Source: Spiribacter salilacus | GTDB lineage: Bacteria; Pseudomonadota; Gammaproteobacteria; Nitrococcales; Nitrococcaceae | DNA length: 64,000 nucleotides | Direction of reading: 5' to 3' | Assembly: GCF_009649225.1 (NCBI RefSeq) | Contig: NZ_WJPP01000001.1 | Coordinates: 1-64,000 of the forward strand | Shown here: positions 539 to 11,011 of the stretch, in pieces | How positions within the stretch are numbered: the stretch's first letter is position 1 | Layout: each line of letters starts with the position of its first letter | Program-made: the position numbers and the translations under genes | Notes under the pieces: model-generated | Database searches by the model: none | What the model saw: only the letters and a program-made list of their open reading frames with translations | Told to the model about the DNA's origin: nothing

Positions 539-1833
539 CTATTGCCGAGGTAAAGCTATGGGGCAAATCGATCGGAGCGGTTAGCTGGGATGCAGGTGCC
601 GGACTCGCCCATTTTGAGTATGAACCTGATTTTGTGCGCAGCGGGGTTGAGGTGGCGCCGCTGACGATGCCACTTTCAAAACGGATTTATTCATTCCCGG
701 CCTTGCCCCGAGAGACGTTTCATGGTCTGCCAGGGTTGCTTGCCGATTCATTGCCGGATGATTTTGGAAATGCACTGATTAATGTCTGGCTGGCTAATCA
801 GGGTAGAACACCTGAAACCTTTAACCCGGTTGAGCGTCTTTGCTATACCGGTATTCGTGGCATGGGCGCGTTGGAATATTTGCCAGCGCAGGGGTCCTTT
901 ACAGGCAAATCCGAACCCGTTGATGTGAAGGCGCTGGTTGATCTCGCTAGCAGGATCTTGACGAAACGAAATACGCTTCAGGGCTCTTTCAACCCTGAGC
1001 TTAGAGAAGACTCCTTACAGGATATTTTGCGTGTAGGTACCTCGGCAGGCGGAGCCAGAGCAAAGGCGATTATTGCCTGGAATCAGAAAACCAATGAGGT
1101 GCACTCTGGCCAGGTCAAGGCAGGGCAAGGTTTCTCTTACTGGTTGTTGAAGTTTGATGGTGTTTCCGGCAATAGGGATAAGGAGCTGGAAGATCCGGCA
1201 GGTTACGGACTCATCGAGCATGCGTACTACCATATGGCGAAGAAAGCCGGTATCGACATGGCAGAGTCACGACTGCTCAAAGAGAACGGCCGCAGTCACT
1301 TTATGACCAGACGTTTTGACCGGACAGATTCTGGCCAAAAGATACATATGCAATCCTTCTGCGCCATGGAGCACTTTGATTTCAAGAAGGCAGGAGCTCA
1401 CTCTTATGAGCAGGCACTGCGCACAATTCGCAAGTTGGGAATGCCGATGGCAACGATTGAAGAACAGTTCAGGCGAATGGCCTTCAATATTATTGGCCGT
1501 AACCAGGATGATCATGTCAAGAATATTGCTTTCCTGATGGATAGGTCAGGCAACTGGTCGCTATCTCCGGCCTTTGATATGACCTACAGCTATAACCCTC
1601 AAGGTGACTGGACCAGTCAGCACCAGATGTCACTCAATGGCAAGCGTGATGACTTCACGATTGAGGATTTTAAAGCCTGCGCGAAAAATGCATCCATGAA
1701 ACGTGGCCGAGCAGAAGAAATTGTTCAACAGGTGCAGGAGGCTGTATTGCAGTGGAAGCGTTTTGCTGGCAAATCGGGTGTGCCGCCAGAAGTTGCTGAT
1801 GGCATTGCCAAGACACACCGAACAGCAATTTAG
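535..1833 (+). CDS. hipA: HipA-type serine/threonine kinase toxin
   Basis: The 432-residue product is a full-length HipA-family kinase. An N-terminal HipA_N domain (about 1-115) is followed by the kinase fold. The glycine-rich loop 'GTSAGGARAKA' lies at 168-178 and contains the serine position that is autophosphorylated in E. coli HipA. The catalytic motif 'DDHVKN' is at 325-330 and the metal-binding 'FDM' at 347-349. Known HipA toxins phosphorylate aminoacyl-tRNA synthetases and induce dormancy; the substrate here is unknown. The start is GTG in a GTGA overlap with hipB, preceded by a GGGGAG ribosome site at about 7 nt, so translation is probably coupled. All kinase motifs are present, so the toxin is likely functional. 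Confidence 0.93.
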   Translation: MTIAEVKLWGKSIGAVSWDAGAGLAHFEYEPDFVRSGVEVAPLTMPLSKRIYSFPALPRETFHGLPGLLADSLPDDFGNALINVWLANQGRTPETFNPVERLCYTGIRGMGALEYLPAQGSFTGKSEPVDVKALVDLASRILTKRNTLQGSFNPELREDSLQDILRVGTSAGGARAKAIIAWNQKTNEVHSGQVKAGQGFSYWLLKFDGVSGNRDKELEDPAGYGLIEHAYYHMAKKAGIDMAESRLLKENGRSHFMTRRFDRTDSGQKIHMQSFCAMEHFDFKKAGAHSYEQALRTIRKLGMPMATIEEQFRRMAFNIIGRNQDDHVKNIAFLMDRSGNWSLSPAFDMTYSYNPQGDWTSQHQMSLNGKRDDFTIEDFKACAKNASMKRGRAEEIVQQVQEAVLQWKRFAGKSGVPPEVADGIAKTHRTAI

Positions 1834-1866
1834 CGTGTAAAGTATGTTCAAACCCTTGGTGACCCT

Positions 1867-2946
1867 ATGATCAATAAAAACAAAATGGCAGCGGTCGTGC
1901 TGACGCGTCATGGCGGGCTTGATGCATTGGAATATCGAACCGATGTTCCCGTACCTTCGCCTGGCCCTGGTGAGGTGTTAATTGAGGTGCATGCCTGCGG
2001 CATGAACAACACCGATGTTTGGGTGCGCGAGGGCGCGTACGGTAGCGAGACTGATCCCCAGGCGATATCAACATGGCGGCGAGGGCGTTCAACGCTCACA
2101 TTTCCGCGCATCCAAGGCACCGACAGTGTGGGGCGGGTGGTCGCAGTAGGTGCTAATGTGCCAGAAACACGCTTAGGCGAGCGCGTCATCATCGATTTTA
2201 GTCTCTATAACCGCGATGACGACAGCCTTGCCGATATCGATTACATCGGTCATGGGCGCGATGGTGGCTATGCAGAATATCAGTGCGTACCCGCAGAGAA
2301 TGCGCATGCGGTGGATACCGCACTGAGCGATGCCGAGTTGGCGACTTTTTGCTGCGCTTATTTGACCGGCGAGCATATGCTTGAGCGCGCGGCGGTGCAG
2401 CCGGGTGAGCGGGTGCTGGTGACTGGCGCCTCCGGCGGTGTGGGGTCAGGCATTGTGCAACTATGCCGGGCCCGTGGCGCCATTCCCTATGCGATGACAC
2501 GTGCTGATAAGGCCGATGCACTGATGGATATTGGTGCAGAGGCGGTGATTGACAGAGACAGCGCAGATTGGGTGGCAGCCGTGGATAAGGCAACAGGCGG
2601 CCAGCCCATCGATGTGGTGGCTGATTTAGTGGCAGGCCCACGCTTTAATGACTTGCTGCGCATTTTGCGCCCCGAGGGGCGATATACCACGGCCGGTGCC
2701 ATTGCCGGGCCGGTTGTTGAGCTGGATCTAAGAACCCTCTACCTCAAACAGCTTCAGCTACATGGCTCCTCGCAAGGGCGGCGCAGTGATTTTGCACGCC
2801 TGCTGGGTTACATCCTTGATGGCAAAATCAAACCGCTGCTGAGTGAGACTTATCGGCTGTCTGATTTTCATCAAGCTCAATCCGATTTTATGGCCAAAGA
2901 CTTCGTGGGCAAGTTGGTTGTGATTCCTGATCGGCATTATGGATAA
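1867..2946 (+). CDS. zinc-type MDR-family NADPH:quinone oxidoreductase-like protein
   Basis: This 359-residue protein has the GroES-like N-terminal domain (about 10-150) and a Rossmann domain with the NADPH loop 'GASGGVGSG' at 187-195. It belongs to the medium-chain dehydrogenase/reductase family. The structural GHE zinc motif of classical alcohol dehydrogenases is replaced by 'GTD' at 84-86, which points to the quinone-oxidoreductase branch. The substrate is not predictable. An internal Met at codon 7 is an alternative start. The gene overlaps the next one by 8 nt, so the two are probably co-translated. It resembles but is not convincingly the acryloyl-CoA reductase AcuI. Confidence 0.75.
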   Translation: MINKNKMAAVVLTRHGGLDALEYRTDVPVPSPGPGEVLIEVHACGMNNTDVWVREGAYGSETDPQAISTWRRGRSTLTFPRIQGTDSVGRVVAVGANVPETRLGERVIIDFSLYNRDDDSLADIDYIGHGRDGGYAEYQCVPAENAHAVDTALSDAELATFCCAYLTGEHMLERAAVQPGERVLVTGASGGVGSGIVQLCRARGAIPYAMTRADKADALMDIGAEAVIDRDSADWVAAVDKATGGQPIDVVADLVAGPRFNDLLRILRPEGRYTTAGAIAGPVVELDLRTLYLKQLQLHGSSQGRRSDFARLLGYILDGKIKPLLSETYRLSDFHQAQSDFMAKDFVGKLVVIPDRHYG

Positions 2947-3952
2947 GCTGATTGAACTAGAGTGGATTGATGTTGACATCGGTGGCGATATTCACCGGGT
3001 GTTGTTCAAGGGCCCGCCACTGGATGAATCACTTAGTGTTCGCGCTCGCATGGAGTGGCTGAGCGGCCCGGGCGATGGGCTTCGAAGGCTATTAATCGAG
3101 CCGCCGCACGGCCACCCGTCCTATTGCGTGGATATGATTACCCCGGCGCAGCATCCTGAGGCCCAGGCGGCGTTTATTATCATGGAAGTGATGGGCTATC
3201 CCTTTTTCTCAGGCTCCAACACCATGGCAACGGCGGCTGCCTTGCTGGAAAGCGGGTTTGTCTCGCTGGAAACAACCGATGGCGAGCAATGCGTGCGTTT
3301 AGAAACGCCAGGGGGGCGCGTTGATGCCTTCGCGACGCTTGTGGATGGCCACGTAACTCAAGTAGCCATCCAGGGCGATGAAGCCTTTGTGCAACAGGCC
3401 GATGCGCAGGTCAATGTGCCGGGGTTGGGTAAGATTGGCTACGATCTTGTTTGGAGTGGTGGGCATTACCTGCTTATCGATGCAGAGCAAGTCAGCCTAA
3501 CGCCTGAAGAGGCGGGGCAGCCAGCTGGGTTAGCCATTGCGGCTCAGATTATTGAGGCCGTTCAGGCTGATTTTAATTGGCAGCATCCCTGGTTAGGAGA
3601 TGTCGGCCTACCACGTTTTCTGCATTGGCTTTGGCCGGCTAATGAGGTGGCGCCGGACCGTTGGGAGTCAATTGGCGGCACTTATGGCCACCCAGGCGTG
3701 CTATGGGGTTGCCCAACTGGCACGGGCACAATCGCCCGAATGGCGTTATTGGGGCATCGCGGGCTCGCTGCTCCCGGCGCGGTGCTGCGCAATACTAGCC
3801 CCTCGGGAACCGCGTTTGAGGCAACGTGGTTAACGGCAGGTCAAGTAGGGGAATGGCCAAGTGTGAGGGCTAGAGTGCACGGCCAGCCAACGATTGTTGG
3901 GCAATTTAGCCTGTCGGTACCAATGAATAAGGTGCTACCAACCACGCGGTAG
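2939..3952 (+). CDS. proline racemase-family protein, Ser/Thr variant
   Basis: The 337-residue length and fold motifs match the proline racemase / 4-hydroxyproline epimerase / trans-3-hydroxyproline dehydratase superfamily. The two catalytic loops can be located. The first, normally MCGHGT, reads 'FSGSNT' with Ser91 in place of cysteine. The second, normally SPCGTGT, reads 'CPTGTGT' with Thr260 in place of cysteine; the only nearby Cys (258) is two residues off. Racemases and epimerases need both cysteines, while dehydratases tolerate one substitution. Lack of both argues for a dehydratase-like or other chemistry. It overlaps the MDR oxidoreductase gene, so a two-enzyme pathway step is likely. 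An LDH2-family enzyme at 8720 could be a downstream imine reductase. Confidence 0.8.
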   Translation: MDKLIELEWIDVDIGGDIHRVLFKGPPLDESLSVRARMEWLSGPGDGLRRLLIEPPHGHPSYCVDMITPAQHPEAQAAFIIMEVMGYPFFSGSNTMATAAALLESGFVSLETTDGEQCVRLETPGGRVDAFATLVDGHVTQVAIQGDEAFVQQADAQVNVPGLGKIGYDLVWSGGHYLLIDAEQVSLTPEEAGQPAGLAIAAQIIEAVQADFNWQHPWLGDVGLPRFLHWLWPANEVAPDRWESIGGTYGHPGVLWGCPTGTGTIARMALLGHRGLAAPGAVLRNTSPSGTAFEATWLTAGQVGEWPSVRARVHGQPTIVGQFSLSVPMNKVLPTTR

Positions 3953-4011
3953 TAGTAAACTAGCGGTTCAGCATCCGCAACGGCGATGCAAATTAATAAT
4001 CAGGAGTTCTA

Positions 4012-4752
4012 ATGTTTAAAAAGCTGGTCCCGTTGAATCGGGAAGCCCACGCCAAATTGAAGGTAAAACCCATTGATACGTTTGGTTTTGCTAGCGGTTT
4101 TCATATTGCCTCTTTAATGGTGCACGAGTTTGCTCGCGCTGCCTCGGCTTACCCCATTGTTTTTCTTGAAGATAAAGAAAAAGATGAGTTTCGCCCGGTG
4201 GTACTGCTTGGATTAGAAGCAGGAGAAAACCTATTTTTGAATGACGAGGGGAGCTGGAAAGCTTCTTATGTGCCAGCAATTATTCGGCGCTATCCCTTTG
4301 CGCTGGCGCGGCTTGGTGAAGACGCTGATCAATTTACCGTTTGCCTAGATGAAGAATCAGACTTCATTAATGAAGAAACGGGTGAGGCGTTATTTGCTGA
4401 AGACGGTGAGCCAACCGAAGTTGTCGAAAACGTAAAGCGCTACCTTGGTGAAATGCAGCAAATGGAAGGGTTTACCCAGCAATTCTGTCATTTCCTCTCA
4501 GAGCACAATTTATTTAATCCGCTCAACATGCGTGTACGCTATGGCAGCGCCATGCGTAATGTCACCGGTTGTTACGTGATTAACGAAGAGCGGCTATATA
4601 ACCTCTCTGACAAGCTCTTTTTAGAGATTCGCGATAAGCGTTATTTAGCGCCTATGTTTTCGCATTTAACCTCGCTAAGCCAGATTGAGCGTTTAGCGCG
4701 GTTCAAAGAAGATTCGGGTGACAACACGCCGCCACCCGCAGCGGATGTCTGA
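4012..4752 (+). CDS. SapC family protein
   Basis: This 246-residue protein is recognised as a SapC-family member, named after an S-layer locus protein of Campylobacter. The family's function in gammaproteobacteria is not established. It has no signal peptide or membrane segment and carries an acidic, proline-rich C-terminal tail. A good ribosome site (AGGAG, 6 nt before ATG) fixes the start. The gene stands alone between the racemase-like gene and tRNA-Ser; a weak GCATC/GATGC hairpin lies about 20 nt upstream of its ribosome site. Confidence 0.75.
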   Translation: MFKKLVPLNREAHAKLKVKPIDTFGFASGFHIASLMVHEFARAASAYPIVFLEDKEKDEFRPVVLLGLEAGENLFLNDEGSWKASYVPAIIRRYPFALARLGEDADQFTVCLDEESDFINEETGEALFAEDGEPTEVVENVKRYLGEMQQMEGFTQQFCHFLSEHNLFNPLNMRVRYGSAMRNVTGCYVINEERLYNLSDKLFLEIRDKRYLAPMFSHLTSLSQIERLARFKEDSGDNTPPPAADV

Positions 4753-4784
4753 TCTGACGTAATGCTGTAGAATCGCGACGCGAA

Positions 4785-4874
4785 GGAGAGGTGGCTGAGT
4801 GGTTGAAAGCGCCGCACTCGAAATGCGGTAGGTCTTAACGGGCCTCGGGGGTTCGAATCCCTCCCTCTCCGCCA
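4785..4874 (+). tRNA. tRNA-Ser(CGA)
   Basis: The 90-nt sequence folds as a class II tRNA. It has acceptor GGAGAGG/CCTCTCC, anticodon loop CTCGAAA with anticodon CGA, a long variable arm (about 4829-4849), a TTCGAAT T-loop and an encoded CCA at 4872-4874. A TAGAAT -10-like element at 4768-4773 with a GC-rich discriminator lies just upstream; the -35 is poor. A strong hairpin with a T-run follows immediately. The acceptor end is repeated at 72-91. Confidence 0.97.
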
Positions 4875-4912
4875 GGCATAAAAAGACCCCCGTTGGGGGT
4901 TTTTTTATGCCT
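4875..4912. terminator. bidirectional rho-independent terminator
   Basis: A long inverted repeat with an ACCCCC/GGGGGT core, a GTT loop and flanking A-run and T-run arms (GGCATAAAAA/TTTTTTTATGCC) starts at the base after the tRNA CCA. It can terminate the tRNA-Ser transcript on the plus strand. It can equally stop the DUF1007-NicO-DUF411 operon arriving on the minus strand, whose last gene ends at 4936. Confidence 0.93.
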
Positions 4913-4935
4913 GATGAAAGTGTGTTCGAACCCCA

Positions 4936-5400
4936 CTACTGGTTATGAGCACTAAACACTTCAGTCTGGTTGTTGTCTTTTACCAAAAGAGTTTCAAATG
5001 GATCACGCTGATCGCCCATTTCCATGCCAGGAGAGCCGATGGGCATGCCCGGTACGGTTAGGCCGCGTGCGCCATCAGGGCGTTCCTTTAATAGACGGGC
5101 AATATCGCTGGCAGGCACATGCCCTTCAATGAAATACCCATCCACCATCGCGGTATGACAGGACACTAACGCAGGATCAATATTGAGATCACGCTTTACT
5201 CCATTGAGCGCCTCATGCGTCATGTCATAGGGCACCACGTCAAAGCCCGCCTGTTCTAAATGTTCAATCCAGGCGGTACAGCAACCGCAGCTGGGCGTTT
5301 TGGCAACGGTAACGCTGCCGGCGTCAACCGCATTGGCATTTTGGAGAAATAAAGCGGTGGCTAAAATTAGGGTAATTGCACTTGTGATGAGAAGACGCAT
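4936..5400 (-). CDS. DUF411 periplasmic metal-binding protein
   Basis: The 154-residue product begins with a signal peptide (about 1-24, cut near 'NANA') and carries the family hallmark 'CGCC' at 38-41 plus a later 'SCHTA' motif. DUF411 proteins are small periplasmic metal-binding proteins often found beside copper or nickel resistance genes. I chose the ATG at 5400, 27 nt inside the longest frame, because an AGGA ribosome site precedes it and the signal peptide starts there. It is the last gene of a three-gene reverse-strand operon after a NicO exporter. The metal bound is not evident. Confidence 0.85.
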   Translation of the reverse strand: MRLLITSAITLILATALFLQNANAVDAGSVTVAKTPSCGCCTAWIEHLEQAGFDVVPYDMTHEALNGVKRDLNIDPALVSCHTAMVDGYFIEGHVPASDIARLLKERPDGARGLTVPGMPIGSPGMEMGDQRDPFETLLVKDNNQTEVFSAHNQ

Positions 5401-5416
5401 AATTGAAATTCCTAGT

Positions 5417-6307
5417 TTAAAGCCCACGAAGTGGGGGTGTGTTCAACAAGGGGCTGGTGACGGGTTGGCTGCCGCTGGCAAGCAGTAATGACACGCCCAA
5501 GAGCATAATGATTACCCCACCAATTAGCGCAATCCATCCACCCAGTTGATGTGACTTGCCATCTGGAGAGACGGCCCAGCGCTGTGCCCAGTCGCGCGCG
5601 TAAACACTCAAAATGGCAAGCACAGATACGGTGAGCGCCGTGCCTAAGGACATCACTAATACCGCCGCAACCCCAAGCATAAATTTGCCCAATAACAACG
5701 CTGCACCCAACATGAGCACTGCGCCGGTACATGGTCGTATGCCAACACTTACGATCACGCCAAATGCGGACCGCCAATCGGTGGGTACCTGCTCATTATC
5801 ATGCGAGCTACAACAATGGTGAGTGTCTGGTTTTCGTAAGCGCTTAGTGGCGCGCAAACACAACCAACCACCAAGTAGTGTGACCATGGCAAAGCTTACT
5901 TGTTCAACCCAATAAACACTGCCCATGGCTTGGCGTGTTACCCAGCCTAGGCCAACAACAAGCACGGTTACGACGATGATGGCGGTAAGCCCTTGCACTA
6001 GCGCTGAGGCGGCGGACATCCAAACAGCAGTTCGTCTCGTTGTATTGTCGTGCGAGGCTAAATACGTGGTGATGACGGCTTTGCCATGCCCAGGCCCGGC
6101 GGCATGAAATACGCCGTAAGCAAAACTAATGCTGAGCAGGGCAACCCAGTCTGAAATGGCCAAGGTGAGGGCACGATGAAGTTCTCTCTGCCATAAAACA
6201 ATTTGCAGGCTGAGCGATTGAAATGCCGGTTGTAAAAAATAGGCCGCCAGCCCCAGGGCCACTATGGCGCCCATGGCAATGAGGCGTCGGCGAAGCGCTA
6301 CTGACAA
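5417..6307 (-). CDS. NicO/RcnA-family nickel-cobalt (heavy-metal) transporter
   Basis: This 296-residue membrane protein has six or more hydrophobic segments. It carries the two NicO-family metal motifs: 'HAAGPGHGKA' (68-77) in an early helix and 'GIRPCTGA' (189-196) in a later one. A cytoplasmic or periplasmic loop at 161-172 is rich in His and Cys ('THHCCSSHD'), suitable for metal capture. RcnA-like members export Ni and Co. The gene overlaps the preceding DUF1007 gene by 10 nt and is followed 16 nt later by the DUF411 gene, so the three are a unit. Confidence 0.88.
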   Translation of the reverse strand: MSVALRRRLIAMGAIVALGLAAYFLQPAFQSLSLQIVLWQRELHRALTLAISDWVALLSISFAYGVFHAAGPGHGKAVITTYLASHDNTTRRTAVWMSAASALVQGLTAIIVVTVLVVGLGWVTRQAMGSVYWVEQVSFAMVTLLGGWLCLRATKRLRKPDTHHCCSSHDNEQVPTDWRSAFGVIVSVGIRPCTGAVLMLGAALLLGKFMLGVAAVLVMSLGTALTVSVLAILSVYARDWAQRWAVSPDGKSHQLGGWIALIGGVIIMLLGVSLLLASGSQPVTSPLLNTPPLRGL

Positions 6308-6942
6308 ACCACCTCTCCGGTATCAGCAAAGTAACGCCCTAGGCCATATTCACCTTGCTCATCAATGCCAAGCTCAGCAGCTTCCATCACCAACTCGGGG
6401 TCTGGGTCGGCCGCGACGATGCGGGTTTGGCATTGCAATGGCCCCTGCACGGTAAGCGCATCGGGAATGGGTTGGTTGCGATCCGCTTCGTGCAACATCT
6501 CTAAGAAGTAGGTGGGCTCAAAGATCTGATATTGCAATGTTGCGCCTTGCATGGGGGTTGGCTGTTCAATAGGTAGCGTAAACGCAAACACGATGTGCTG
6601 ATCGATGTCGACTAATTCGTAAGTTTTGACGGTGCCAAATTCAAGACGCTGACCGTTAATTTCGGCCTGTGTGTTGTATTGGTCTGCGGTTAAGTTCTGC
6701 TGAATTTCATCTGCCATCAGATCAAGCGCTTCAGTTTTGCCGGTTGCACCGAGCCGGTTAAGTTCCTCAAGCAGCGCAAGACTGTAGAAGGGGTCCATCT
6801 TCCAGCGCTGCTCGAGTGCCACAAGCTGGCCTTTGTCATCGAGCACCACATTTACCCGAATATCGATCCAGCCGTGAGGGTGAGCATTGACCCATTGCGG
6901 CAGAGCAATCAACACTAGAAAAATCCATGCAAAGCCTTTCAT
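6298..6942 (-). CDS. DUF1007 periplasmic protein, first gene of metal operon
   Basis: The 214-residue product has a signal peptide ('FAWIFLVLIALPQWVNA') followed by the 'HPHGWID' start characteristic of DUF1007. These proteins are commonly adjacent to, or fused with, NicO transporters and are thought to present metal to them from the periplasm. The His-rich mature N-terminus would lie at the metal entrance. The open frame extends upstream to 7053 but would run into tRNA-Arg, so the Met at 6942 next to the signal peptide is the real start. Confidence 0.88.
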   Translation of the reverse strand: MKGFAWIFLVLIALPQWVNAHPHGWIDIRVNVVLDDKGQLVALEQRWKMDPFYSLALLEELNRLGATGKTEALDLMADEIQQNLTADQYNTQAEINGQRLEFGTVKTYELVDIDQHIVFAFTLPIEQPTPMQGATLQYQIFEPTYFLEMLHEADRNQPIPDALTVQGPLQCQTRIVAADPDPELVMEAAELGIDEQGEYGLGRYFADTGEVVCQ

Positions 6943-6978
6943 GGGTATAGCGTAGCATTCATTCGTTGGCTGCGTCGC

Positions 6979-7007
6979 TTGACCATTTGGCCGATAACCA
7001 ACATACT
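6979..7007 (+). promoter_or_regulatory. promoter of tRNA-Arg
   Basis: TTGACC (6979-6984) and CATACT (7002-7007) are separated by 17 bp and followed by a GC-containing discriminator. The predicted start, near 7014, is about a dozen bases before the tRNA. The -10 matches the consensus at only 4 of 6 positions. Confidence 0.5.
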
Positions 7008-7025
7008 TACGCTCGCTTTTCTTAA

Positions 7026-7102
7026 GCGCCCGTGGCTCAACTGGATAGAGCACCTGACTACGGATCAGGAGGTTGGGGGTTCGAATCCTCCCGGGCGCGC
7101 CA
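7026..7102 (+). tRNA. tRNA-Arg(ACG)
   Basis: The 77-nt gene folds as a standard tRNA. It has acceptor GCGCCCG/CGGGCGC, anticodon loop CTACGGA with anticodon ACG, T-loop TTCGAAT and an encoded CCA at 7100-7102. Its last bases are duplicated at 7732-7747 on the other side of a small islet, so the 3' end has served as an integration or recombination site while the tRNA stayed intact. Confidence 0.97.
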
Positions 7103-7104
7103 TC
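7089..7104 (+). repeat. left direct repeat at the tRNA-Arg 3' end
   Basis: The 16-mer TCCCGGGCGCGCCATC spans the T-stem/acceptor end and CCA of tRNA-Arg plus two bases. An identical copy lies at 7732-7747. The flanking bases diverge on both sides. Confidence 0.9.
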
Positions 7105-7181
7105 CTATCTTGTCAGTAACTCCTGTAAAAATTTTTTTGCATTTCTGTGCTTATCAAATGATTGTCAAAAAAAGTCAAAAA

Positions 7182-7199
7182 GCATATTGTATGATATGC
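7182..7199. promoter_or_regulatory. dyad operator upstream of mmpA
   Basis: A perfect inverted repeat GCATAT-N6-ATATGC lies 33 nt before the mmpA start. It overlaps a promoter-like pair: TTGTCA at 7162-7167 and TATTGT at 7185-7190, 17 bp apart. Because MmpA is an XRE-type DNA-binding protein, autoregulation at this dyad is a natural inference. Confidence 0.5.
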
Positions 7200-7232
7200 A
7201 AATAGACAATTTTGCCTATTAAAGGATTTGCA

Positions 7233-7697
7233 ATGAATGTAAAAGAGGCAGTCAGGAAGCAGCACGTACGAATCGTGGATCGAGCCGCACAGCAGCTTGC
7301 GTCAGTGCAAACGCCATCTAACGGTTGGCTGACTTCATTGCGCAAGGCTCTTGGTATGTCCGGCGCAGAAGTTGCTGCCCGCATGGGTATTAGTCGCAAT
7401 GCTATCTATCAGGCCGAGCGTAATGAGCGTGAGGGAGCAATTACCTTAAATCAGATGCAAAAAATTGCTGATGGGATGGGGGGGAGGTTTGTTTATGCGA
7501 TTATTCCTGAGGGCAGTGTTGATGAGATGATCCGTGCTCAGGCAGTTAACAAAGCAGAAGCCCTTATCCGACGTTCAAGTGCACAAATGGCGCTGGAAAA
7601 ACAATCGTTGCCAACTGCACAGACAAAGCAGCGAATTCAGGAACTGGCGGATGAGTTGATACGCGACATGCCAGCTGGCTTCTGGGCCATTAAATGA
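7233..7697 (+). CDS. mmpA: mobile mystery protein A (XRE-family regulator)
   Basis: The 154-residue protein matches the 'mobile mystery protein A' family. It has an N-terminal 'VRIVDRAAQQLA' segment, an XRE helix-turn-helix at about 36-85 ('MSGAEVAARMGISRNAIYQAE') and a C-terminal segment ending 'LADELIRDMP.GFW'. In that family MmpA is normally encoded just before MmpB, a Fic-domain protein, as an antitoxin-toxin-like pair in mobile contexts. The ATG at 7233 is chosen because AAAGGA lies 6 nt upstream; an upstream in-frame TTG lacks such a site. The stop codon overlaps the ATG of an mmpB remnant (ATGA). Confidence 0.88.
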   Translation: MNVKEAVRKQHVRIVDRAAQQLASVQTPSNGWLTSLRKALGMSGAEVAARMGISRNAIYQAERNEREGAITLNQMQKIADGMGGRFVYAIIPEGSVDEMIRAQAVNKAEALIRRSSAQMALEKQSLPTAQTKQRIQELADELIRDMPAGFWAIK

Positions 7698-7774
7698 GCC
7701 TTGAAGAACCAGAGGGGGCAACGCCGCTCGATCCCGGGCGCGCCATCAACTCAAACTCGCTGATTTACCGGTAA
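7694..7774 (+). pseudogene. mmpB: truncated mmpB (Fic-domain mobile mystery protein B), 5' remnant
   Basis: A frame starts in the ATGA overlap with mmpA and reads M-S-L-E-E-P-E-G-A-T-P-L-D-P, which matches the conserved start of mobile mystery protein B ('EGATPLDPDE' in my memory of the family). After codon 14 the frame enters the displaced tRNA-Arg tail and stops at codon 27. All of the Fic domain is missing. The loss leaves the putative antitoxin gene alone. Confidence 0.75.
7732..7747 (+). repeat. right direct repeat, displaced tRNA-Arg tail
   Basis: This is a perfect copy of the 16-mer at 7089-7104, including the CCA. It sits inside the broken mmpB frame and marks the right boundary of the islet. 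Confidence 0.9.
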
Positions 7775-7820
7775 TTATTTTTACGGGCGATTTCTGGTGT
7801 TTTTCGGTATGGTATCGGGT

Positions 7821-8699
7821 ATGGGGTACCGAAAAGTCGTTGGTTTTTTTCTTATCGCTATCTTTGCGACAACAGTGCTCGCGCGCAACGCGTACGCGGT
7901 AGATTTAGCGCCACTAGATGGCGTTGCGCCGCCGCCAGGCGTGAAGGGCGCCAGCATTGCGCTGGGTTACCGGTCATTTGATGAGGCCTATGTTGCTGGT
8001 GTTAAGCAGCCTACCGAAGTCTCTTTACGAGCGCGCACGGCGGCATTGCGTGTGGGCACTTACGTGCCGGTTGGCAGGCTGCCAGGTTATTTTTACGCTG
8101 ACTTTCCCTACGTTGAGTTAGACGGCAACGATGGAGTAGGAGATGTAGCCCTAGCCGGCGCTGTTTGGCCCTATGCAAACAAGGAGTCAGGCACTTACTT
8201 TGGCATTGCGGGGTATCTGGTGCTCCCAACGGGTGATTACGACGTTGAAAACACGCTTGGCCTGAACCGGAACCCCAGTGGCAATAGAGCGGTGGGAGCG
8301 TTGCAAACGGGTCTTAATCAGCGCCTCTACAACCGGTTTAACCTGCAGGTAGCAGTCGATGTGGCCGTCTTTGAAGATAACGACGAATACTTCGGCTCAT
8401 CACTGCAAATCGGCACGTTTGAGCAACGCTCTTTGGTCAGCTGGCAGGCGGCTTTAAGCTATCAATGGTCACGCGCCTTCGCTACCGGTGTGAGCTACTT
8501 CAATAATTCCGGGGGTGAAGTCAGAACTCATGGTGGCCCCTGGAGTGGCGAGGTCCAAAACGAGCGCGTGGGCCTTTGGGTTCGGGCCGCATTATCACCG
8601 CGGATGACCGTCGCGCTAAACTATAAACAAGCAATTGATATTCAAAATGGGCTGAGCGAGGCCGATAACATTCAGTTTAGGATTGCTCGCTACTTTTGA
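7821..8699 (+). CDS. outer-membrane protein, MetA-pathway/transporter-like beta-barrel
   Basis: The roughly 292-residue product has a signal peptide ('VVGFFLIAIFATTVLARNAYA') and then alternating amphipathic strands ending in the aromatic C-terminus 'ARYF', typical of an outer-membrane barrel. The pattern ('ALRVGTYVPVGRLPGYFYADFPYV', 'GDVALAG') fits the Phenol_MetA_deg family of small-molecule transporters, members of which are found with aromatic or solvent catabolism genes. The cargo is unknown. ATG at 7821 or 7809 could start it; neither has a good ribosome site. The downstream dehydrogenase gene follows after 20 nt, hinting at a joint transcript. Confidence 0.7.
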   Translation: MGYRKVVGFFLIAIFATTVLARNAYAVDLAPLDGVAPPPGVKGASIALGYRSFDEAYVAGVKQPTEVSLRARTAALRVGTYVPVGRLPGYFYADFPYVELDGNDGVGDVALAGAVWPYANKESGTYFGIAGYLVLPTGDYDVENTLGLNRNPSGNRAVGALQTGLNQRLYNRFNLQVAVDVAVFEDNDEYFGSSLQIGTFEQRSLVSWQAALSYQWSRAFATGVSYFNNSGGEVRTHGGPWSGEVQNERVGLWVRAALSPRMTVALNYKQAIDIQNGLSEADNIQFRIARYF

Positions 8700-8719
8700 T
8701 TGATACCGGAGGCGCAGCC

Positions 8720-9736
8720 ATGTCACGTCGGCCCATTTCCCCAATAGCACTCAACACCCTCGTTCAGCGTGCGTTGCAGGCGAGTGGCGCCAGCGCCACT
8801 GCGGCAGAAGCAATGGCCAAGGCCGTGGTTGCCGCGGAAATGGATGGTATTCCCAGCCATGGCGTAGCCTACGCGCCAATTTACTGTGAGCATGTTGAAT
8901 GCGGCAAAGTCAATGGTAAAGCAGAGCCAGTCGTGCAACAGCAGCGGGCCGGTACGTTAAGTGTTGATGCGGGCCATGGTTTTGCGCATCCGGCCATCGA
9001 TGCCGGTTTGCCAGCGCTAGTGAAAGCGGCGCAGGCCAATGGAGTGGCTGCGATGACGATTTCACGCTCTTATAATTGCGGGGTGCTGGGTCATCATACC
9101 GAGCGGCTGGCAGCAGCCGGGTTGATTGGGCTTGGCTTTACCAACGCGCCCGCATCCATTGCACCGGTTGGGGCAAAAAAACCCGTGGTGGGCACCAACC
9201 CATTTTCACTTGCGGTGCCAAATATCAGCGATGGCACGGCGGCAATCTTAATTGACCAATCAGCAAGCGTTGTCGCTAAAAGCGAAGTTACGGCGCATAA
9301 ACGTCGAGGAGAAGCTCTGCCAGCGGGGTGGGCTTTAGATGCTGAAGGTCAGCCAACCACAGACCCTGATGCCGCATTAGCTGGAACGATGATGCCCGCC
9401 GGCGGGGCAAAAGGCTTCAACACGGGGCTAATGACCGAGTTATTTGCAGCTGTGCTTGCTGGCGCGCATCTGGGTGTGGAAGCAAGTCCGTTTTCTGGCA
9501 CCGCAGGTGGGCCTCCTGGCACGGGCCAGTGCTTTATTGCGGTTGATCCGGGTGGTTTTGGTAATAATGACTATGCTGGCGGGTTGTCGCGGTTGATTGC
9601 GGCTATTCAGCAGGAGCCTGACGTTCGCCTGCCAGGCGCCCGGCGGCAAAGCAATCGGTTGCGGCACCAAAAAGAGGGTCTGCAGGTTGATGAAAGTCTG
9701 CTGTCTCGAGTCGAGGCAATCGCCTCAGCTAGTTAG
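8720..9736 (+). CDS. LDH2/malate dehydrogenase-family NAD(P)-dependent oxidoreductase
   Basis: This 338-residue protein belongs to the LDH2 family (malate/L-lactate dehydrogenase, ureidoglycolate dehydrogenase, sulfolactate dehydrogenase, delta1-pyrroline-2-carboxylate reductase). Visible hallmarks are 'EMDGIPSHGV' with the catalytic histidine near residue 46, 'SYNCGVLGHH', and 'PFSLAVP'. The C-terminal 'RLPGARR..NR' signature is also present. Which 2-keto or imino acid it reduces is open. The proline-racemase-family gene at 2939 makes the pyrroline-2-carboxylate reductase role attractive but unproven. The ATG at 8720 is preceded by GGAGG, which decides the start against an upstream TTG. Confidence 0.85.
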   Translation: MSRRPISPIALNTLVQRALQASGASATAAEAMAKAVVAAEMDGIPSHGVAYAPIYCEHVECGKVNGKAEPVVQQQRAGTLSVDAGHGFAHPAIDAGLPALVKAAQANGVAAMTISRSYNCGVLGHHTERLAAAGLIGLGFTNAPASIAPVGAKKPVVGTNPFSLAVPNISDGTAAILIDQSASVVAKSEVTAHKRRGEALPAGWALDAEGQPTTDPDAALAGTMMPAGGAKGFNTGLMTELFAAVLAGAHLGVEASPFSGTAGGPPGTGQCFIAVDPGGFGNNDYAGGLSRLIAAIQQEPDVRLPGARRQSNRLRHQKEGLQVDESLLSRVEAIASAS

Positions 9737-9740
9737 CGCT

Positions 9741-10085
9741 TTAAGGTGGCCAGGCGAGTGGTCTGCCGCCGAGTAAGTGTAAATGAATGTGCCAGACCTC
9801 TTGGCCTCCGTCGCGCCCGCAATTAAAGATGGTGCGATAGCCTGACTCAGCCACTCCATATTCTTCAGCCAGCTGTTTTGCTACCCAGTGCATGCGGCCA
9901 AACAACGTGCTGTGGGATTCGAGCATGTCTTGATGGCTGGGAATGTGCTCTCGCGGGATGACCAGCAAATGCACTGGGGCGCGAGGATGAATGTCTTTAA
10001 AAGCCACAATATCGTCGTCTGAATACACAATATCGGCGTCCATTCGGCCGGCGGAAATTTCACAAAATATGCAGGGTTTGTTCAT
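9741..10085 (-). CDS. hinT: HIT-family purine nucleotide phosphoramidase, HinT-like
   Basis: The 114-residue protein has the zinc-less HIT fold: 'CIFCEISAG' at the N-terminus, 'VHLLVIPREHI' in the middle and the catalytic histidine triad 'HIHLHLLGG' near the C-terminus. HinT enzymes hydrolyse AMP-phosphoramidates such as aminoacyl-AMP adducts. Its ATG overlaps the end of the LysR gene by 4 nt, so the two form a reverse-strand operon. Its 3' end converges on the LDH2 gene with only 4 bp between stops. Confidence 0.92.
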   Translation of the reverse strand: MNKPCIFCEISAGRMDADIVYSDDDIVAFKDIHPRAPVHLLVIPREHIPSHQDMLESHSTLFGRMHWVAKQLAEEYGVAESGYRTIFNCGRDGGQEVWHIHLHLLGGRPLAWPP

Positions 10086-11011
10086 GGTTCTAAAGGGTAA
10101 GCCTGCGCTACCTGCTTGGCAAGCCGTGCAGCCTCCGCTCTAACACCTTCTGTGAGTAATCGTGCAAATCGATTGAGTCGATTGACCTGGCGGTCATCAA
10201 CATGCCGAATTAAATAAAACGTTCGCTGTAAGCTAATCTCTTGCCGCAGTACGGGCATGAGCTCGGGAGCGAAGGGCAATGCGAAGTCATGCACGATTGC
10301 TGGCCCTGCCCCTTGGCGTGCCCAATTAAGCTGGACCACAACTGAATTAGACGAGAGGCGGGGCGGGTTGATGCCAATCTCGCTGAGATAGTCGAGCTCG
10401 CTGTCAAAAATCATATCGGGGATGTACCCCACAAATCGATGAGGCTTTAGATCCTCAAGGCTAAGCGGTTCGCCATGCTTAGCAATCCATGTTTTCGCCA
10501 CGGCAATGGATAATTGATAATCAGTGAGGGGTTGAACGATCAGCCGGCCCGTTTGGGGTCGAGACACCGCAATCGCCATGTCTGCCTCGCGTTTAGACAG
10601 GTTAAAGATACGGGGCAGAGAGACAATTTGGACTTCTAGTTCGGGATTATCTTGGCAAATCTGCTCAACCACTTGGGGGAGTAAGAAGCTAGCGCAACCA
10701 TCTGGCGCACCAATCCGAATAGAGCCACGCAGCTGATCAGGCGAGTCGGCCACGGCTTGCTCAGCGTTAATAAAGGACTGCTCCATGGCATCTGCATGCT
10801 GCAGTAGGCGTTGCCCGGGTTCTGTGAGCAGATAGCCTTGGGGGGATCGGTTAAAAAGGCGTACCCCAAGGTTTTGTTCAAGTCGTTGCATGCGCCGACT
10901 AATGGTGGCGGGGTCTTTTTTAAGGACATGACCTGCTGTAGAGAGGCTTTCTGCGCGCGCTAGCGCGAGGAAAATTCGAAGATCATCCCAATGCGGTGAT
11001 GCGTCTGTCAT
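10082..11011 (-). CDS. LysR-family transcriptional regulator
   Basis: The 309-residue protein has an N-terminal winged helix-turn-helix (about 8-66, 'LSTAGHVLKKDPATISRRMQRLE') and a LysR substrate-binding domain (about 95-300). It is divergent from the mmsA-like gene with a 105-bp intergenic region holding a repeated motif, the classical arrangement for a LysR protein controlling its neighbour. The inducer is unknown. In Halomonas DMSP loci a LysR regulator (DddR) accompanies a similar dehydrogenase; that parallel is only suggestive. Confidence 0.9.
   Translation of the reverse strand: MTDASPHWDDLRIFLALARAESLSTAGHVLKKDPATISRRMQRLEQNLGVRLFNRSPQGYLLTEPGQRLLQHADAMEQSFINAEQAVADSPDQLRGSIRIGAPDGCASFLLPQVVEQICQDNPELEVQIVSLPRIFNLSKREADMAIAVSRPQTGRLIVQPLTDYQLSIAVAKTWIAKHGEPLSLEDLKPHRFVGYIPDMIFDSELDYLSEIGINPPRLSSNSVVVQLNWARQGAGPAIVHDFALPFAPELMPVLRQEISLQRTFYLIRHVDDRQVNRLNRFARLLTEGVRAEAARLAKQVAQAYPLEP

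Follow-up and report, generated by a model that had tools for sequence, protein, structure and literature searches.

The 3' end of a tRNA-Arg gene of Spiribacter salilacus is repeated 643 bp further on, behind a gene for a helix-turn-helix protein and just where the beginning of a second gene breaks off. How did this arrangement arise, and what has been lost from it? The locus lies in a stretch of 64,000 nt (assembly GCF_009649225.1, contig NZ_WJPP01000001.1, positions 1-64,000, forward strand), the whole of which is referred to here as the window. We propose that it is quite likely a decayed, CIME-like and non-autonomous islet at tRNA-Arg, whose mmpB gene would have been lost by a deletion into the distal tail copy.

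The tRNA-Arg locus

The repeat, TCCCGGGCGCGCCATC, comprises the 3' end of tRNA-Arg and the two bases that follow it, and the second copy is perfect (Table 1). A reading made from the sequence only had described this pair of repeats; both are confirmed, and no further copy exists in the window even if three mismatches are allowed. In the whole 2.24-Mb genome, one additional site is found with up to one mismatch, and it carries that mismatch. Five of the 16 bases of the right copy (TCCCG) belong to mmpB as well, which leaves 11 bases that are tail only. Between the repeats, mmpA is the sole complete open reading frame longer than 74 aa, and neither an integrase nor a transfer gene is present inside, as the sequence-only reading had stated for the integrase. 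Neither an arm nor an integrase fragment was seen in the islet; among the collected loci, the left arm (7105-7232) matched just L075 and L079, weakly and over short stretches. About 5 kb upstream of the islet, at 188-1833, the window also holds a HipB-like/HipA-like pair that scores under the curated family cut-offs; no tRNA was found alongside it in the window.

Table 1. Coordinates of the tRNA-Arg locus in the window, and mmpAB loci with tRNA tail copies elsewhere
Locus	Feature	Position	Strand	Remark
Window	tRNA-Arg(acg), intact, presumed insertion target	7026-7102	+	ARAGORN
Window	left copy of the 16-bp repeat (tRNA tail, attL-like)	7089-7104	+	repeat search
Window	islet, 643 bp (one repeat phase)	7105-7747	+	missing in nearest relative G008
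Window	operator/promoter dyad GCATATTGTATGATATGC	7182-7199	+	kept upstream of close mmpA relatives
Window	mmpA, intact, HTH protein, 154 aa	7233-7697	+	TIGR02612
Window	mmpB remnant, codons 1-14	7694-7735	+	start overlaps mmpA stop
Window	26-aa chimeric frame: mmpB(1-14), tail, flank	7694-7774	+
Window	right copy of the 16-bp repeat	7732-7747	+	first 5 nt (TCCCG) common to mmpB, putative deletion junction
Window	downstream chromosomal gene (PF13557)	7797-8699	+	same neighbour at empty site of relative
L066/L114 (gammaproteobacterial MAG)	tRNA-Met; mmpAB alone			49-bp copy, spacing 1531 bp (1.53 kb)
L164	tRNA-Phe; hipBA-like pair and mmpAB			50-bp copy
L144	tRNA-Phe; mmpAB plus a 437-aa protein that has no Pfam match			33-39 bp copy
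L150 (deltaproteobacterial MAG)	tRNA-Lys, then several tail copies; mmpAB unit			unit closed by 12-bp copy
L097	partial tRNA at contig end, tRNA-Thr by reading			20 bp at 90%
L174	tRNA-Arg-like tail			14-bp copy, weak
L170	array of four tRNA-Arg-like tail copies; cargo Fic, AbiEii, ParE with mmpAB	2326-10401	+ (mmpA)

Empty site and origin of mmpA

The flank 6300-7104 was searched in 59 genomes. In the nearest relative, a member of the same genus (G008, locus L005), the flank as far as the tRNA is 79% identical, and the sequence starting at window position 7889 is 75% identical; this genome has a single tRNA tail and the same next gene and is devoid of the islet. The sequence TTCGGTATG follows 26 bases past the 16-bp position of the single tail in G008 and 55 bases beyond the right repeat copy in the window, and no mmpA was found at the empty site of G008. 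The earlier proposal that the unit was gained at the tRNA 3' end is upheld by this relative.

TIGR02612 exceeds its cut-off in one of 54 genomes of the order, namely that of S. salilacus itself, in 26 of 369 genomes of the class (again including it) and in 27 of 385 genomes of a class around Marinicauda. Among the best 80 of 179 relatives, the closest MmpA proteins are those of Pelagibacterium (75%) and Sinisalibacter (72%). A tree with 30 hand-picked mmpA loci places the window sequence (100/98) together with alphaproteobacterial and Idiomarinaceae MmpA. This placement and the patchy distribution suggest that mmpA was gained horizontally. One scan of viral contigs with MmpA alone yielded no relative.

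Second tail copies in the genus

Thirteen tRNA-Arg loci of the same genus are free of the islet, and seven of these (L007, L009, L014, L017, L019, L020 and L022) carry the tail a second time on the strand of the tRNA. L005, L006 and L012 have a single tail, L013 and L015 are cut by a contig end, and L033 was not recognised by the pattern. It has to be noted that orthology with the window locus could be recognised only in L005 and, as far as the DNA upstream of the tRNA goes, in L009. In L007 and L009, two or three exact copies of the 16-mer occur. In these congeners the tail belongs to a unit of about 90-155 bp made up of a terminator, a T-arm-like segment in inverted orientation and a tRNA-tail copy in direct orientation; in L009, a unit of about 150 bp is present about three times in tandem.

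Since seven of the 13 congener loci have a second tail without an islet, the right copy in the window might derive from such a unit, which would resemble RtT RNA (RF00391). The right tail would then be a host unit tail older than the islet, mmpAB would have come between the tails by another route, and a deletion would have fused mmpB to the tail. The second tails of the congeners, about 90-155 bp apart, are in line with this, as are weak RtT matches along the full length in two (L020 and L017) of the five loci tested (30.5 and 26.5 bits; gathering score 45), and the strong fold of one congener unit (z -6.4). Like RtT repeats, the window has a tRNA 3' end repeated behind the tRNA gene; unlike them, it has 0.6 kb of foreign coding DNA between the copies, and an RtT search of 6900-8000 with E values up to 1 came out empty. 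Moreover, only a single tail is found in G008, the nearest relative, whose downstream gene is the same, and an older tail leaves unexplained why mmpAB stands between tails at other tRNAs. We consider this origin of the right copy unlikely.

The sequence-only reading had named the occurrence of its repeat at sites without the islet as an observation that would speak against it. The seven congeners, with the exact 16-mer in two, present this observation in part, whereas G008 does not; because the nearest relative has one tail only, the model survives in a weakened form. The islet reading is favoured by the same fact, as this relative shares the next gene, and also by the same cargo standing between tail copies at other tRNAs (see below).

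mmpA, its operator and the remnant of mmpB

The first gene of the islet is mmpA, which we take to be mobile mystery protein A, the name of TIGR02612. "Mobile mystery" denotes a pair that has repeatedly been met on mobile DNA. With 144 bits against a curated cut-off of 122.6, the protein belongs to this family; it has an HTH_3 domain, and PADLOC gives only weak HTH matches for it. Compared with eight relatives, dN of mmpA is 0.15-0.27 and dS is at least 2.6 or undefined.

Upstream of mmpA, GCATATTGTATGATATGC is the unique match in the window, with up to two mismatches allowed, to a dyad pattern that was composed after inspecting the upstream regions of relatives. In all 11 clade relatives tested, the dyad occurs with 0-3 mismatches no more than 150 bp ahead of mmpA, whereas 50 shuffles of each of these upstream regions always gave at least four. 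The promoter dyad ascribed to the unit by the sequence-only reading is corroborated by these relatives. It appears specific to this mmpA clade, because just 12 of the 121 loci with sufficient upstream sequence have it with three mismatches or fewer. The layout is that of a type II toxin-antitoxin (TA) system, i.e. an operon of two genes with a DNA-binding first protein and an operator, the second gene being a remnant here.

The start of mmpB overlaps the mmpA stop in ATGA, and its frame translates as MSLEEPEGATPLDP, then GRAINSNSLIYR, then a stop. The remnant retains the conserved PEGATPLDP, which reads PEGATPLDPDE in intact MmpB. Together with the TIGR02612 score, this conserved start substantiates the original naming of the two genes. 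The final 18 mmpB bases and one further G are identical to mmpB of Sinisalibacter (L075), which places the break inside the TCCCG that mmpB and the tail have in common. The earlier observation that mmpB homology stops at the repeat holds in the sense that the junction lies inside the tail copy. Codons 2-26 of the chimeric frame (25 aa) had no family match in profile scans, and the frame is probably not a functional protein.

In relatives, MmpB is a Fic protein according to Pfam, TIGR02613 and solved-structure matches, and two intact MmpB match candidate-Fic (PDC-S04) in PADLOC. No complete Fic-domain protein of TIGR02613 is present downstream of mmpA in the window; elsewhere in the genome, a search for mmpB gave three weak Fic matches, none exceeding the cut-off. 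The neighbourhood set comprised 135 mmpA loci, reduced to 122 once near-identical mmpA had been removed. Three had insufficient downstream sequence, and among the 119 scored the mmpB match is long in 96, partial in eight and absent in 15. Half of the partial matches (4 of 8) extend to the C-terminal part only or mainly, and in some of the partial and no-match loci mmpB may have diverged instead of being lost. In L090 (at tRNA-Ala), L142, L168 and L171, read by eye, an mmpB start breaks off early as in the window.

That mmpA without an mmpB match is not rare (the 15 loci above) would also be compatible with a repeat that arose by chance beside an ordinary, horizontally gained solo mmpA. However, the 16-mer is exact and unique in the window, coincides with the tRNA end on one side and the mmpB break on the other, and is accompanied by a relative with an empty site; 11 tail-only bases recurring within 700 bp are very unlikely as a coincidence. 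We regard a chance repeat as extremely improbable.

mmpAB between tail copies at other tRNAs

Intact mmpAB stands between tail copies at several other tRNAs (Table 1). The sequence-only reading had suggested looking for intact mmpB genes with the same tRNA tail behind them; intact mmpAB with the tail of its neighbouring tRNA behind it exists at other tRNAs (L066/L114), not at this tRNA-Arg. The tRNA-Lys and tRNA-Thr cases (L150, L097) are less secure than those at tRNA-Met and tRNA-Phe. The last copy in L150 is weak (E 0.08), though it provides the mmpB stop, and further units of this locus contain a Gp49-like and an Nmad2 protein. Among the open reading frames listed and the proteins scanned (some small frames fell outside the scan), no integrase was recognised inside the islets of L114, L164, L144 and L097 or the mmpAB unit of L150.

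L170 is an array of TA cassettes in which the CCA side of every tail copy bears like sequence. The longest of these stretches is a truncated integrase, a 3' fragment (PF00589, 50.8 bits); another has the same integrase C-terminal end, and the remaining two were judged by eye. Because no complete tRNA was found in the stretches of L170 or L174, their tRNA names are a reading of the tails. L221 has an additional tail copy on a single side only, L090 a tail match of just 12 bp beyond mmpAB, and no copy beyond mmpAB was found at L082, L092, L093, L131, L132, L147 and L236. At L093, beside tRNA-Ser, mmpA is duplicated in tandem (2248-3051), a truncated copy of 110 aa preceding the full one.

Within 500 bp, we counted 10 T-arm motifs (tRNAs or tail copies) with their 3' end facing mmpAB versus 1.57 expected (Poisson P 6e-6). 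The expectation was taken from the T-arm rate at 1.5-10 kb, the raw count was 11 before L103, judged accidental, was dropped post hoc, and the loci are not fully independent. Two T-arms within this distance face away from mmpAB, the second tail copy of L114 and a T-arm of L223. Exact tail copies of at least 14 nt accompany 6 of 16 near-facing tRNAs or tails versus 10 of 44 far ones, so tail copies by themselves discriminate poorly between the two. Four of the far cases come from the tRNA cluster of L169, one from the tandem tRNA-Gly genes of L090, three from the arrays of L150 and L170, and two from the L114 tRNA-Gln and L135.

Exchange of cargo and the search for a helper integrase

Comparisons among relatives are consistent with mobility of such units. 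In Marinicauda pacifica (L082), mmpAB lies behind tRNA-Thr and about 1.5 kb separate the tRNA from the next gene; in G831, a member of that family, only about 190 bp lie between the corresponding two genes. At the tRNA-Met of L114, the congener G184 lacks both mmpAB and a second tail copy, and its downstream genes differ too. Another congener (G816, L262) carries at this tRNA-Met an islet (1264-3556) with hipBA as cargo. Its right 193 bp, including the 49-bp tail, are 90.7% identical to those of L114, and a short like stretch exists at the left. As the ends are alike and the TA cargo is different, this one pair suggests end-specific recombination in trans. The claim that the tRNA tail served as attachment site stands insofar as the unit sits at the tRNA end; that mmpAB itself used it is less certain, with hipBA in place of mmpAB between like ends in one pair of congeners and integrase 3' fragments in L170.

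A search for a helper integrase via the right end of L114 returned this end in two of 369 genomes of the class, G296 and G816 themselves. The S. salilacus genome encodes four PF00589 proteins, and in this search of the PF00589 family none was found to be a helper. Two have the size of Xer proteins, a third belongs to a tRNA-Glu island, and the 14-kb stretch examined for the fourth contains no tRNA. In the L150 genome, a MAG, both PF00589 proteins are of Xer size. The island just mentioned (L271, 1471-8430; G000:C11:106000-120000) consists of tRNA-Glu(ctc) and a second tail about 6.9 kb on, the two flanking a tyrosine integrase gene.

An integrase-bearing island in the same genome would fit the idea that the window holds the remnant of a large island at tRNA-Arg, in which mmpAB was carried at the edge and a single deletion took out all DNA between mmpB codon 14 and attR; the integrase 3' fragment and like sequence beside the tails of L170 point in the same direction. 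Yet a compact two-tail islet containing mmpAB only is known (L114; also L150, with its weak last copy), so that a large ancestor is not needed, and we think this origin rather unlikely.

A model for the islet and its relation to known elements

For the islet reading, we infer the following order of events. A small islet with mmpA, coding for a putative HTH antitoxin and autorepressor, and mmpB, coding for a putative Fic toxin, would have inserted at the 3' end of tRNA-Arg, leaving one tail copy at each islet end. As the islet has no recombinase gene, the mover was likely a tyrosine integrase acting in trans on its ends. A later deletion via the 5-nt microhomology TCCCG would have fused mmpB codon 13/14 to the distal tail and removed the toxin, so that the tRNA and the operator-mmpA unit are still intact and 14 mmpB codons are left. 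What speaks against this course is that the right copy measures 16 bp versus 33-50 bp in the best islets, and that mmpB accounts for five of these bases.

The locus has the marks of a non-autonomous tRNA islet, i.e. target-derived direct repeats at both ends and a relative with an empty site, with the caveat of the second tails in congeners. CIMEs, in the excerpt of PMC5704250 considered here, are decayed ICEs or IMEs. They resemble the islet in that att-like repeats bound them on both sides and genes for integration or transfer are absent; stacking at tRNAs is a further parallel (compare L150 and, between tails, L170). In contrast, mmpAB units measure about 0.6-3.8 kb and contain little beyond TA pairs, and their mobility is here deduced from sequence alone. 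The window islet would be a variant of CIME-like elements, and as a single copy it is modest. It matches the mobile mystery pair (TIGR02612/TIGR02613) in an MmpA above cut-off, an overlapping mmpB start and a Fic partner in relatives, and differs in that mmpB is down to 14 codons.

Modules flanked by pdif sites with TA cargo are small units without their own recombinase that are moved in trans. The same holds for CALIN cassettes with small cargo, as outlined in the excerpt of PMC11389934. Integron cassettes of this kind and pdif modules end in attC or XerCD sites, whereas the units described here end in tRNA tails. In Shewanella, a TA pair on tRNA-integrated DNA is known from HipAB in tRNA-Trp (excerpt of PMC8978831); this is a composite island of 48 kb, in contrast to the compact TA unit here. 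Titles and abstract openings of the literature retrieved contain no description of mmpAB islets at tRNAs, and in the parts considered "mobile mystery protein" receives passing mentions.

What is of more interest is that TA units recur in which no integrase is recognised and the ends are alike, one case also showing an exchange of cargo. The complete look-alikes at other tRNAs suggest that TA pairs can be mobile in small units that encode no recombinase, and the like ends with exchanged TA cargo suggest how the pair might move, namely by an integrase acting in trans on the ends. More tentatively, and as a possibility about which we remain doubtful, these units of 1-4 kb could form a class, tRNA-tail TA cassettes, whose members insert, stack and swap cargo at tRNA 3' ends without an integrase of their own. 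Such a cassette would consist of one or two TA pairs, sometimes with an extra gene, short like ends and two tail copies, and the window would hold a toxin-deleted one. The TA pair would help to hold the cassette in place, and the S. salilacus locus is likely an end state in which the toxin was deleted and the antitoxin retained. If the class is real, its behaviour at tRNA 3' ends would be comparable to that of integron cassettes.
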